The translations under genes were made by a program, and so were the position numbers. 64,000 nucleotides of DNA from Bremerella volcania (GTDB taxonomy: Bacteria > Planctomycetota > Planctomycetia > Pirellulales > Pirellulaceae): NCBI RefSeq assembly GCF_007748115.1, contig NZ_CP036289.1:4464001-4528000 (forward strand), written 5' to 3'. The notes beneath the pieces were generated by a model, which was not told the origin of the DNA, searched no databases, and saw only the letters and a list, made by a program, of their open reading frames with translations. Positions 56,282-63,990 of the stretch are shown here, one piece after another (within the stretch, counting starts at the first letter, position 1; each line of letters begins with the position of its first letter).

Positions 56282-57418
56282 ATGCTCAATCCACCACCAC
56301 GCATCGTCCTTGATCTTGAGAAATCTCGGAACTTTTGTTCCGGGCTGGGGCAATTTGCCCGCAATCTCGGACGTGCGCTGACCACCGAGATGAGCAACCG
56401 CGGCCTCCGACCGATTCCCTTCGTCACCTCGGCTCAGGTCAATGAATTCGGTACGCCCGATGCCCTGGAAGCCAAGCTGTGGCGGAAAGAGATCTTCCAA
56501 CGCTGGTATCGCTGGACGCAAATGGGGCGCTCGCCGGACTATGCCCTGTGGCATGCGACGCATCAACAAGCGAAGTACCTGCCCCTGAACCCCAAGACGC
56601 GCGTCTTGCTGACGATTCACGATCTGAACTATTTGCGCGAGAAGAAGGGCCCCAAGATCGAACGCGAGCATCGCCGTATCGCTCGGTTGATTCGACGCGC
56701 CGATGCCGTCACAGTTATCTCGAAGTTCGTCGCAGGGGAAGTGAAGTCGTATTTCGATCTGCAAAACAAGCCATTGCAGGTGATTTACAACGGACGACCC
56801 GATATTTCTCAACTGCCCGCCCAACAGCCGGCATGGCTCAACGCGAGCCGGCCTTACCTGTTCAGCATCGGGATTATCGACCGGAAGAAAAACTTCCACG
56901 TCTTATTGGATCTGATTCAACGCCTGCCGAATCATCAACTGGTGATCGCCGGACAGAACGGTTCCGAGTATGCCTGCGAAATGCGACGCATCATCGAAGA
57001 GCAACATCTCGCCGATCGCGTTTCCCTGCCAGGTCCCGTCAGTAATGAAGAGCGGCAGTGGCTGTACGAAAACTGCGAGGCGTTCGTCTTTCCATCCCTG
57101 ACTGAAGGGTTCGGATTGCCTCCGATTGAAGCGATGACGGTTGGCAAACCAGTCTTCCTCGCCCGACGTACGAGCTTGCCGGAGATCGGCGGTAAGAGAG
57201 CGTTCTATTGGGACGACTTCTCACCGGACCATATGCTCGACGTCTATCATCGCGGCATGCAGACATTCAACGCTTCGCCTGAGTACGCCGAGCTACTGCA
57301 ACAGGCCGCCGCGCGATTCTGCTGGCAGGAAGCCGCACGCCAATATGTCGATCTCTACCGCAGCATTCTGGAACTGGAAAAGATCGAATCTTTTCAGCCG
57401 ACACTAGCCGCTGCCTAA
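56282..57418 (+). CDS. glycosyltransferase family 4 (GT-B) protein
   Basis: A 378-residue GT-B glycosyltransferase. The donor-binding half contains YLFSIGIIDRKKNFHVLLDLI, VIAGQNG and the E-x7-E element FPSLTEGFGLPPIEAM, typical of retaining GT4 enzymes. The N-terminal acceptor half has SGLGQFARNL. It probably adds a sugar to a cell-surface polysaccharide or lipid. It has no glycosyltransferase neighbours, so the product is unknown. Confidence 0.9.
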   Translation: MLNPPPRIVLDLEKSRNFCSGLGQFARNLGRALTTEMSNRGLRPIPFVTSAQVNEFGTPDALEAKLWRKEIFQRWYRWTQMGRSPDYALWHATHQQAKYLPLNPKTRVLLTIHDLNYLREKKGPKIEREHRRIARLIRRADAVTVISKFVAGEVKSYFDLQNKPLQVIYNGRPDISQLPAQQPAWLNASRPYLFSIGIIDRKKNFHVLLDLIQRLPNHQLVIAGQNGSEYACEMRRIIEEQHLADRVSLPGPVSNEERQWLYENCEAFVFPSLTEGFGLPPIEAMTVGKPVFLARRTSLPEIGGKRAFYWDDFSPDHMLDVYHRGMQTFNASPEYAELLQQAAARFCWQEAARQYVDLYRSILELEKIESFQPTLAAA

Positions 57419-57622
57419 AGCAAGCTGCCCCTCATCCGGGGCCAACGCTGGACGGGGCATTTGAGATACTATTTCCGGGGGATTTTTCTTGACGCCGCTC
57501 AAGACGGGGAATAGTTTACACGATATTACTTTGTAACGGCGTCGATTCCACCAGTTCCAAGCCGTGACACCTGACGAACCAATGACATCGATGTGAAAAT
57601 CGATTCACCGAACATAGAATTT
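57419..57622. other. intergenic region upstream of the structured RNA
   Basis: The full gene-free gap is 57419-57854. TGCCCC with GGGGCA near 57426-57460 could terminate the glycosyltransferase transcript. GACGCCG (57491-57497) and CGGCGTC (57537-57543) form a 7-bp inverted pair around an AT-rich stretch (57508-57535) that could include a promoter. No gene seen. Confidence 0.5.
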
Positions 57623-57725
57623 GTTCCCATTACCTAATGGTAACCTCATCCCGGGGCAGGGTATCCTGAGATACCAGAAAAGAGGTTGGATTGCCTGGCG
57701 ATCGTAGGTAATGGGAACTTTTTCT
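57623..57725 (+). ncRNA. candidate structured RNA with terminator-like outer stem
   Basis: GTTCCCATTACCT (57623-57635) pairs perfectly with AGGTAATGGGAAC (57706-57718), and TTTTTCTTCTTCTT follows at once, so the outer stem looks like a terminator closing an 84-base structured RNA. Inside, AACCTC (57642-57647) pairs with GAGGTT (57682-57687) around the hairpin GGTATC-CTGA-GATACC. A further hairpin, GATTG-CCTGG-CGATC, lies at 57689-57703. The 5' strand can also form TTACC-TAAT-GGTAA (57630-57643), which would disrupt the outer stem. I know no RNA family that fits. A small mobile element with inverted ends is the main alternative. Confidence 0.55.
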
Positions 57726-57854
57726 TCTTCTTGACCATGCAGGGGCACACGTCTCTTTTCCCTCGCCACAATTGCTCTAATCGTTAAAGTCGGCATGCCT
57801 GCGGAGTCGATACCAAGAGAGACGGGGGGCTGTCACACCTGCAGGAATGCGCGG

Positions 57855-58439
57855 ATGAATATTGCAACCGCTATACCACTGGGAATCGGCGCGGCTTCGA
57901 TGGCGGCCGGAGCGGCCCGGCAACTTTCGGATGGCGTTTTCTCGCTGCTTCAAGGAGAAGCGGAAAAGACGGCGGAAACCAATACGCCGGATGACACCTC
58001 TCTCGAATCCTTGCTCGCCGCCAGCGGTCTACTGGGCGGCAACGTTGACGAGCTTCAAGATCAGTTGGGGCGTTCGCTGGAAGACCTGGAAGACCTTCTG
58101 CGTCGCACGTTCCATCAAGCCGGACAAGACCTGCCGGAGTCGTTTCAACTGCGGATCGACCCCAACGGCGAGATCGCCGTGAATGGTGCCGATGCGTTCG
58201 CCCAGCAAACCAAAGGTCTACTGCAACAATCGGAAGAAGCCCAGCGACTGCTCGCGCAAATCGCCGCGCAGACAGCGGCCATTCAAGCGGCCACCGATCA
58301 GCAAGCGTTTGCCCGGCAGTACAACGACGATCCCGAAGCCGCACTCAGCGCGCTGCATCAGGCAAAAGAAGAACACGCCGGCCTCGACCTGACGTTCCTC
58401 GAAGGCCGAGTCGCGAGCATCAACCTGGCGGCCGCTTGA
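57855..58439 (+). CDS. hypothetical protein, alanine/glutamine-rich helical
   Basis: A 194-residue protein that I do not recognise. A Gly/Ala-rich segment (residues 4-22, ATAIPLGIGAASMAAGAA) could insert in or touch a membrane. Then come acidic helices and a Gln/Ala-rich coiled coil (LLQQSEEAQRLLAQIAAQTAAIQAA). ATG 57855 is chosen over an upstream in-frame start because the added residues are Cys-rich and unlike the rest. The last 20 bp overlap the convergent protoporphyrinogen oxidase gene. The structured RNA lies 130 bp upstream and could control it. Confidence 0.65.
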   Translation: MNIATAIPLGIGAASMAAGAARQLSDGVFSLLQGEAEKTAETNTPDDTSLESLLAASGLLGGNVDELQDQLGRSLEDLEDLLRRTFHQAGQDLPESFQLRIDPNGEIAVNGADAFAQQTKGLLQQSEEAQRLLAQIAAQTAAIQAATDQQAFARQYNDDPEAALSALHQAKEEHAGLDLTFLEGRVASINLAAA

Positions 58440-59847
58440 CGCTTAAGTATTCGCACACTCGCTGGGCTGCCTGTTCGCCGCTTTGGATGCACTGCGGCAC
58501 CCCCACGCCTCGGTAAGCATTGCCGGCCAGTTCCAAACCGGGCAGTCGGGCCGCTTCCTCCTCGAGCATCGCCACGCGATTGAGATGCCCCAGATGATAC
58601 TGCGGCATCTTGCCCATCCACCGCGTGACGAGAAACTTCTCTGGCTCGCCTCGCAGGCCGATCAGTTCGCCCAGTTCCTGCATCGCCACTTGCTTCATCT
58701 CGTCGTCTGAAAGATCGGCCAGTTCCGGATGACACGCACCACCGACGAACACGCGTATGATCACCTTTCCGTCCGGGGCACGCCCGGGGAATTTGGCACT
58801 GGAAAAACTACCGGCCAAGATCTTCCGGTTCTCGATCTCTGGCACGACAAACCCAAAGCCAGCCACCGGACGCGTGATCTGCTTTTCATCCACCGCAAGA
58901 ATCGCCACGCTGCAGCCTGCATAAGGAATTGCTTCCAGATTCTCAGCCAGAACGGGAAACGCGTGCAGAACCTTCGACGCCGCAGGGGCCGGCAACGCCA
59001 TGATCACCGCATTGAAGGCGTGTTTCTCACTGGATGTTCGCACGGTCCAACGATCGTCTGTTTTTTCAATCGAGAAAACCGGCGTGCCGAGATGAATCGT
59101 CTGCGCGGAAAGATGCTGCTGAAGGTTTTGCACCAGTTGCCCCATCCCCTGCTTGGGCGCGACGAACATCGAGTACCGGGCGCCACTCTCATTTTTCTGC
59201 CCATTGGCTTCCTTACGCTGGGCGGCTTTGATCAGGCTGCCGTGCTTTTGCTCCATCTCGACGAACTGCCGCAGCGTGGCCTGGATGCTGAGCTTGGTGG
59301 GATCGGCCGTATAGATCCCGCCGATCAGCGGCTGCACGAGACGCTCGTACGCTTCCCTACCTAAGCGGCGCGTGACGAACGACTCCAGGCACTCGTCCGA
59401 AGGATCTTCCCGCTTCGCGACGAAGTACTCCCTGGCCAGACGCAGCTTGCCGGCCCAACTCAAAATGGGGGTCGTGATCACCGACCACATCTTGCTGGGG
59501 GCCATCAACACGAAGCCCTCAGGCACCGGATATAACTTGCCGCGGCGAACGACGTACGCCTTACGCAAAGCCTCGTTGGTCGGCAGCAGATCTTCTTCCA
59601 TCCCCAAGCGGCGGCATAGGTCGAGCGCGTACGAGATGTTGGTGATGAAGTTGTCCGCGCTGTTTTCGAGCAAGTAACCATCGGCGGTCGTCGTCGTTTG
59701 CAGAACGCCACCCAACCGGTCATCCGCTTCGAAGACGTGCACGTCGTACGCAGGGTTCAATTCCACGAGCCGATGCGCGGCGGCAAGTCCGGAGATACCA
59801 CCACCGATCACGGCAACACGGGGCCTGGGCGTTTGTTCGTCCATCAT
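58420..59847 (-). CDS. hemY: protoporphyrinogen oxidase (HemY/HemG type, FAD-dependent)
   Basis: A 475-residue FAD enzyme that oxidises (copro)protoporphyrinogen in heme synthesis. The dinucleotide motif VAVIGGGISGLAAAHRL is near the N-terminus. LGGVLQTTTTADGYLLENSA and the ending GNAYRGVGVPQCIQSGEQAA are family signatures. The length fits HemY. Two adjacent ATGs (59847 and 59844) follow AAGGA closely; a GTG eight codons earlier is also possible. It faces away from the Ftr gene. No other hem genes are in the window. Confidence 0.92.
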   Translation of the reverse strand: MMDEQTPRPRVAVIGGGISGLAAAHRLVELNPAYDVHVFEADDRLGGVLQTTTTADGYLLENSADNFITNISYALDLCRRLGMEEDLLPTNEALRKAYVVRRGKLYPVPEGFVLMAPSKMWSVITTPILSWAGKLRLAREYFVAKREDPSDECLESFVTRRLGREAYERLVQPLIGGIYTADPTKLSIQATLRQFVEMEQKHGSLIKAAQRKEANGQKNESGARYSMFVAPKQGMGQLVQNLQQHLSAQTIHLGTPVFSIEKTDDRWTVRTSSEKHAFNAVIMALPAPAASKVLHAFPVLAENLEAIPYAGCSVAILAVDEKQITRPVAGFGFVVPEIENRKILAGSFSSAKFPGRAPDGKVIIRVFVGGACHPELADLSDDEMKQVAMQELGELIGLRGEPEKFLVTRWMGKMPQYHLGHLNRVAMLEEEAARLPGLELAGNAYRGVGVPQCIQSGEQAAQRVCEYLSVKRPPG

Positions 59848-60011
59848 TCCTTCGGAAGTTCTGCGAGACACGATGCAACACGAATACCCTATTGTAGATC
59901 CCCGACGCCGATTTGGTTACCCAGGCAGATGGCGGTGCGGGGTTGGCAATGCGCGCGGGTCGGGGGAAGATAGAAGGTCTCGTACTCACATGGATCCCGG
60001 GGAATGCACCT

Positions 60012-63481: not shown

Positions 63482-63946
63482 ATGAGCTTTGATGCCGCCC
63501 TGGATGCTTTGAACTTGGAATTGCCGCCGGCGCCAAAGGCCATGGGGCTTTACAAGCCTGCGGTCACAGTCGGGAACCTTGTTTACCTCTCGGGTCACGG
63601 TCCGCTGAGCCCGGACGGTACGCTTCAGTTGGGCAAAGTGGGGGTCGACGTCGATCAGGAAGTGGGCTACGCGGCCGCTCGCCAAACGGGCCTGGCCATG
63701 CTCGCGACATTGAAGGCCCACCTGGGCAGCCTCGACAAAATCAAACGCCTGGTGAAAACGTTCGGCATGGTCAACTGCCAGGACTCCTTCACCCAACAAC
63801 CGGCGGTGATCAACGGCTTCAGCGAGTTGATGAAAGAAGTCTTCGGCGAAGACTGCGGCATCGCGGCGCGCAGCGCCATCGGCGTGAACGCGCTGCCCGC
63901 CGGCATGACCGTCGAAGTCGAAGCGATCTTCGAGTTGAAGGATTAG
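63482..63946 (+). CDS. RidA (YjgF/YER057c/UK114) family protein
   Basis: A 154-residue RidA-family protein, of the larger subfamily with a GHGPLSPDG loop. Other signatures are KPAVTVGNLVYLSG, NCQDSFTQQPAVINGFSELM, and the terminal ARSAIGVNALPAGMTVEVEAIFE. RidA proteins hydrolyse reactive enamine/imine products of amino acid metabolism; this subfamily's substrate is unsettled. The ATG at 63482 follows AAAGAAACATC weakly. Confidence 0.92.
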   Translation: MSFDAALDALNLELPPAPKAMGLYKPAVTVGNLVYLSGHGPLSPDGTLQLGKVGVDVDQEVGYAAARQTGLAMLATLKAHLGSLDKIKRLVKTFGMVNCQDSFTQQPAVINGFSELMKEVFGEDCGIAARSAIGVNALPAGMTVEVEAIFELKD

Positions 63947-63953
63947 ACAAAAT

Positions 63954-63990
63954 CTTGTCCCCTCTCCCTTCCAAAGGGAGAGGGGACAAG
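63954..63990. repeat. dispersed palindromic repeat, short form (copy 4)
   Basis: CTTGTCCCCTCTCCCTT (63954-63970) pairs perfectly with AAGGGAGAGGGGACAAG (63974-63990), a 17-bp stem with a 3-base loop. The arms match those of the long copy at 8641-8749. Confidence 0.92.

Follow-up and report, generated by a model that had tools for sequence, protein, structure and literature searches.

The window analysed here comprises 64,000 nucleotides of Bremerella volcania (C1:4464001-4528000 of a 6.5-Mb single-contig genome) and includes a gene-free gap of 436 bp (57419-57854), in which a structured RNA element occupies 57616-57725 of the plus strand, about 130 bp ahead of the next ATG. Both the gap and this distance agree with an earlier note on the same DNA, which had proposed an undescribed structured RNA or a switch-like leader at this place. 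The gap is preceded by a gene for a group 1 glycosyltransferase (56282-57418) and followed by a plus-strand gene (57855-58439) for a 194-aa protein, hereafter named HEL. A protoporphyrinogen oxidase gene on the minus strand (58420-59871), with a TIGR00562 match above the cut-off, is convergent to HEL. HEL itself matched nothing above the cut-off in Pfam and had no match in NCBIfam, and M1, P8, A13 and A14 are invariant among 12 homologues. Scans of large window ORFs, nine with Pfam and seven with NCBIfam, yielded widespread families only. All 13 loci at which the RNA was identified share this architecture, lying between the glycosyltransferase and the oxidase genes with HEL beside the RNA.

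The core of the RNA, delimited by two covariance models (R1 and R2) and by pair counts over 13 sequences, begins with AGAA and ends with TTCT, whose pairing across the tail (P0) extends the inverted repeat to 57616-57636 and 57705-57725. The outer helix P1 is formed by GTTCCCATTACCTA (57623-57636), which makes 14 perfect pairs with TAGGTAATGGGAAC (57705-57718) and closes a three-way junction. The earlier note had the position of this stem and its perfection right and its length one pair short, at 13 bp; the segment that it took to be 84 bases long amounts to 68 nt between the arms. The three inner helices that it had listed are present at their place, namely P2 (AACCTC/GAGGTT, 57642-57647 with 57682-57687) and the hairpins P3 (GTATC-CTGA-GATAC, 57661-57665 with 57670-57674) and P4 (GATTGC-CTG-GCGATC, 57689-57694 with 57698-57703). 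The heptamer GGGGCAG (57653-57659) is identical in all 13 sequences, as are AGAA and GTTCCC/GGGAAC. Its first G closes the CYG/CRG pairs, and the remainder together with one further base makes up a 7-nt bulge (57654-57660). The U-rich run claimed for the end of the element does follow the outer stem directly as TTTTTCT, so that the 3' arm of P1 and its tail (57705-57725) resemble an intrinsic terminator; GGGAACTTTTT was found in 13/13 sequences, TTTTTCT in 12/13, and a stem followed by TTTTT again in 13/13. A generic terminator scan left the P1 stem unlisted because it permits loops of 3-8 only.

A covariance-model search for compensatory changes, suggested in the same note as a check, gave a positive outcome. 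Over the 13 sequences, 91.9% of the pair cells hold, and 17 pairs carry double changes in 35 cells. Six slid controls stayed at 4-7 pairs with 5-11 cells, and none of 500 shuffles attained as much pairing, as many double changes or as high a score. This 13-row alignment was fitted to R2 and therefore leans to the model structure. A plain MAFFT alignment of nine sequences (A1) gave 93.8% of cells paired and 13 double-change cells (slid controls, 2-7). The count of further pair types did not rise above shuffles, being reached by 369/500 with nine sequences and by 138/500 with 13. Within P1, nine pairs are invariant, three show double changes and one is broken in 5/13 sequences; two of the three changed pairs are common to the four members of a second genus (g19) and perhaps record one event each. 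P2 is the weakest helix, with 71.8% of cells paired and a double change in each of its six pairs, while P3 has double changes in three of five pairs and 92.3% of cells paired. For P4, 94.4% of cells are paired in the nine members of the first genus, and the second genus carries a longer insert for which no reliable alignment was obtained. RNAalifold applied to A1 recovered P0, P1, P3 and P4, and replaced P2 as drawn by pairing of columns 31-34 with 40-43. The RNA also forms an island of conservation, its mean pairwise identity in the nine genus members being 0.71 compared with 0.33 in the 5' leader and 0.34 in the 3' spacer. Compensatory base changes that keep a common fold, by which structured noncoding RNAs are recognised, are present here and mark this structure as a real one on which selection acts at the RNA level.

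Folding energy adds to this picture chiefly through the outer stem. The 110-nt core has a z score of -4.28, with 0/200 dinucleotide shuffles equally stable, and the 12 other homologues range from -3.29 to -8.03 (0/200 each); a longer stretch of 141 nt at the locus reached -2.41, with 4/200 shuffles equally stable. Folded alone, the interior of P1 scored -0.20 in this genome and between +0.51 and -3.78 in the 12 remaining homologues, and the excess of stability comes mostly from P1. Energy alone is no proof of the inner fold, because the interior is unremarkable here; around P2/P3, the minimum fold of the single sequence departs somewhat from the consensus pairing. The plus strand is more stable than the minus strand in 13/13 sequences (by at most 1.5 kcal/mol in three), and G-U cells outnumber A-C cells by 29 to 15 in 12 sequences. 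Stability, G-U excess and the T-tract all favour the plus strand.

A DNA search returned one match in the own genome and, among 60 genomes, placed the RNA in this genome and eight congeners (9/60) and in none of the 51 others; for one congener (G004) the match spanned 33 nt only, and the full element was then read at its locus. R1, built from nine sequences and run on 241 genomes of the family, retrieved 13 genomes at E up to 1 (nine of the genus, three of g19, one weak), and R2, built from 12 sequences and run on 396 genomes of the order, retrieved 14 (eight, four and two weak). Each model necessarily recovers the sequences from which it was built, so only the three g19 genomes of R1 and the fourth of R2 (G085, locus L032) count as independent finds. 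The two models were discordant for G085, which has an R2 match and no listed R1 match, and for the genus member G003, which has an R1 match and is not listed for R2. Because of this discordance and of strict filters, under which the scans scored at most 14 and at most 7 candidates per genome, the absence of the RNA from other genomes is not firm. Weak model matches occurred in other genera (L025, L027, L028, L029, L033 and L034); L025 and L028 were rejected as homologues, their alignments consisting of short stems and a similar U-rich tail with no bulge. What sequence comparison shows is an RNA fold conserved, together with its invariant bulge, at a single locus shared by 13 genomes from two genera. 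The long inverted repeat could also suggest a mobile DNA element of the MITE type; the dispersed copies that the earlier note had named as its sign were not found, and a single match in the own genome, the same site in 13 genomes and a covarying interior leave this origin scarcely conceivable.

Comparison with 4227 Rfam families gave no match at E up to 10 in 57440-57860 and none at E up to 1 in eight congener loci. This result holds for the families in Rfam; the Rhodopirellula-1 motif, which is reported from Proteobacteria and Planctomycetes, is listed with no Rfam accession in Table 1 of its source (PMC2864571). No paper describing this RNA was found by title or by the start of the abstract, and two surveys of noncoding RNAs in bacteria (PMC11109978, PMC8632094) mention none of the planctomycete names searched for in their main texts. 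The element looks like an uncatalogued folded RNA gene of two related genera, kept at the same chromosomal spot with its shape preserved while its letters changed. The earlier proposal of an undescribed structured RNA is thereby upheld by single copy, conservation island, covariation in 13 homologues and lack of an Rfam match.

Several general RNA systems were also considered. The SRP RNA model (RF00169) had no match at the locus and one elsewhere in the own genome (C1:2869286-2869381). At G000:C1:2869158-2869381, two adjacent minus-strand SRP RNA matches (L030 and L031) scored 43.7 bits, above the cut-off, and 32.4 bits, below it; they are possibly tandem SRP RNA genes. Hfq (PF17209) had no match in the own genome and was present in 5/14 control genomes. 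With a Y RNA in view, a search for TROVE gave one partial match above the cut-off (profile 283-368 of 442, 34.8 bits). 6S RNA is shaped as an elongated rod that opens into a central bubble. The RNA resembles it in its paired ends and in being probably a stand-alone gene with its own promoter-like signal, and the 6S model (RF00013), run on the own genome with E up to 10, found nothing, which could leave room for a polymerase-binding RNA too diverged for Rfam. Against this, the same model had no match to the locus itself within that E limit, the RNA is built around a junction, one of whose hairpins carries the invariant bulge, and is no such rod, and it was seen in two genera only; a 6S-like identity is highly improbable.

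Upstream of the RNA, a probable sigma70-type promoter, TTGACG-N17-TAGTTT, lies at 57489-57517 of the plus strand. TTGAC-N16/17-TA is present in 9/9 genus members and ends 85-124 nt before the stem; eight of these promoters hold 8 or 9 of the 12 consensus letters with A2 and T6 in the second hexamer, and the ninth (L009) was obtained by a loose pattern only. The promoter of the own genome is weak (second hexamer 3/6, total 8/12) and was missed by a generic scan. In g19, TTGNNN-N17-TATAGT ends 18-19 nt before P1 in 4/4 members, and the predicted 5' end meets P0. A candidate sigma70-like promoter hence precedes the RNA in 13/13 genomes, with L009 counted by the loose pattern only. The predicted genus transcript would carry a variable leader, about 100 nt long, at its 5' end (57518-57614 here, 78-117 nt in the nine members), with an identity of 0.33. 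This leader is missing in g19, where the promoter abuts the RNA, and it may be trimmed off in the genus by processing. The generic scan preferred another promoter, GTGAAA-N16-TAGAAT (57593-57620, 9/12 letters, 0.6 expected by chance), which counts against a free RNA because its start would fall inside P1. It holds 9/12 letters in 3/9 genus members including the own, with a -35 hexamer of 4/6 in 3/9 and fewer in six. The -35 region of the RNA promoter is overlapped by a palindrome, TTGA-N6-TCAA (57489-57502), in 7/9 genus members, which resembles a Crp/Fnr-type (FNR-like) site.

A plainer reading makes the element an elaborate terminator in the 3' UTR of the glycosyltransferase gene, its structured loop having no separate function. 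The stem and U-rich tail suit such a role, and a script run without a shuffle control found short hairpins followed by at least five T elsewhere in the window (for example before 26979, 40364 and, on the minus strand, 41649). This reading accounts poorly for an invariant bulge and covarying inner helices, and the promoter-like signal intervenes between gene and stem. The glycosyltransferase was found in 14/60 genomes, and its loci in four genomes of four other genera had no RNA, HEL or oxidase in the fetched stretch, the best score of the RNA model there being 11.5 bits (E 0.23). Taken together, these observations make a mere glycosyltransferase terminator very unlikely.

A more serious competitor is a cis-acting leader of HEL, that is, a sensor embedded in a terminator, in which a ligand or protein at GGGGCAG would decide whether the outer stem closes and transcription ends before HEL. 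In 13/13 genomes HEL follows the RNA at a short distance and in the same orientation, and the RNA was never seen without it. The HMP-PP (thiS motif) riboswitch, whose aptamer is described as lying almost wholly inside the terminator stem (PMC6478431), offers a precedent and is the closest published design found, since there, too, a terminator stem with U residues after it encloses a conserved structure. The association with HEL is, however, not independent, the whole locus being syntenic. HEL relatives were found in 22/240 family genomes, and nine of them outside both genera (L048-L056, several weak) had no RNA by the model in the fetched stretch (best 13.6 bits, E 0.14), from which the neighbouring glycosyltransferase and oxidase were likewise absent by tblastn. 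Among the loci examined, the RNA occurs only where the whole gene block does, and this does not discriminate between a leader and a free RNA.

The alternative hairpin on which the switch-like part of the earlier note depended, TTACC-TAAT-GGTAA, does exist in this sequence and was rejected as a conserved antiterminator, being confined to the own genome and found in 0/8 congeners; L008 could form a 3-bp ACC-TATA-GGT by eye. Conserved mutually exclusive folds, by which riboswitches are recognised, were sought as this hairpin only, and in the congeners only, with no occurrence. Moreover, HEL has a conserved promoter-like box of its own past the terminator, TAAAGTCG-N13-GTCGATA (57785-57812, plus strand), situated before the start codon. 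TAAAGT...CGAT is kept in 9/9 genus members and CCGATA in 4/4 of g19, and the identity of the box is 0.64 versus 0.34 for the spacer before it. The form TTAAAGTCG-N13-GNCGATA stands before HEL, and GCCGATAA was seen by eye also before HEL relatives in two other genera (L049 and L050). The box resembles the sigma28 consensus, TAAA/GCCGATAA. A sigma28 promoter was tried and rejected: the strict pattern had one match in the own genome versus two for the reversed control, and [GC]CGATA, sought in 600 nt around two flagellin match starts, was absent from one (L058) and occurred once, 389 nt before the match, at the other (L059). The sigma28-like consensus being unconfirmed, the box can be called promoter-like only. 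The RNA thus differs from the HMP-PP riboswitch in showing no conserved alternative fold, no known metabolic gene downstream and a separate promoter-like box for the next gene. Because HEL has its own box and the g19 promoter abuts the RNA, a free RNA is preferred over a leader; the switch-like leader of the earlier note is not supported, a cis-acting leader of HEL is unlikely though of appreciable weight, and the RNA may still act as a leader in read-through transcripts.

The element is probably a free-standing, terminator-ended gene for a structured small RNA. Intergenic small RNA genes with intrinsic terminators are a known general kind, and the present one shares with them a promoter-like signal, a 3' end of stem and U-tract, a position between two genes and conservation in close relatives. 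It departs from them in that its terminator-like stem encloses the entire molecule and is no separate 3' hairpin, in having no long single-stranded seed and in the failure to find Hfq. The structured loop of 68 nt is long for an intrinsic terminator, which counts against the free-standing reading. Transcription, promoter, termination, free existence, function and protein binding are all inferred. RNA polymerase would start at the sigma70-type promoter at 57489-57517 and would stop at about 57719-57727, once P1 closes and the U-rich tract follows. Comparison shows that the RNA has kept a P0/P1 clamp, which joins both ends, and a junction with inner arms, one bearing the invariant GGGGCAG bulge; the clamp may serve as terminator and end protection at once. 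The bulge is the putative working site, with a protein as its most probable partner. A role in base pairing has less in its favour, since the sole long stretch that is both invariant and unpaired measures about 7 nt and sits within a hairpin, and Hfq was not found.

A bolder view proposes a new class of RNA that senses or docks a protein and has the terminator for its outer wall; binding at GGGGCAG would control clamp closure, and a single fold would thereby yield a small RNA and govern read-through into the lineage-specific gene. We consider it quite doubtful. The bounded RNA, with its covariation, invariant bulge and no Hfq match in its genome, provides a concrete bait in the search for RNA-binding partners, in bacteria about whose small RNAs little is known. 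Planctomycetes are poorly served in this respect: Table 1 of one review (PMC9029176) gives eight distinct annotated small RNAs for the Planctomycetes, Verrucomicrobia and Chlamydiae combined. Elsewhere in the window, a 14-bp hairpin followed by ATTTT lies on the minus strand at about 63953-63990, just past the end of the plus-strand gene at 63482-63946.
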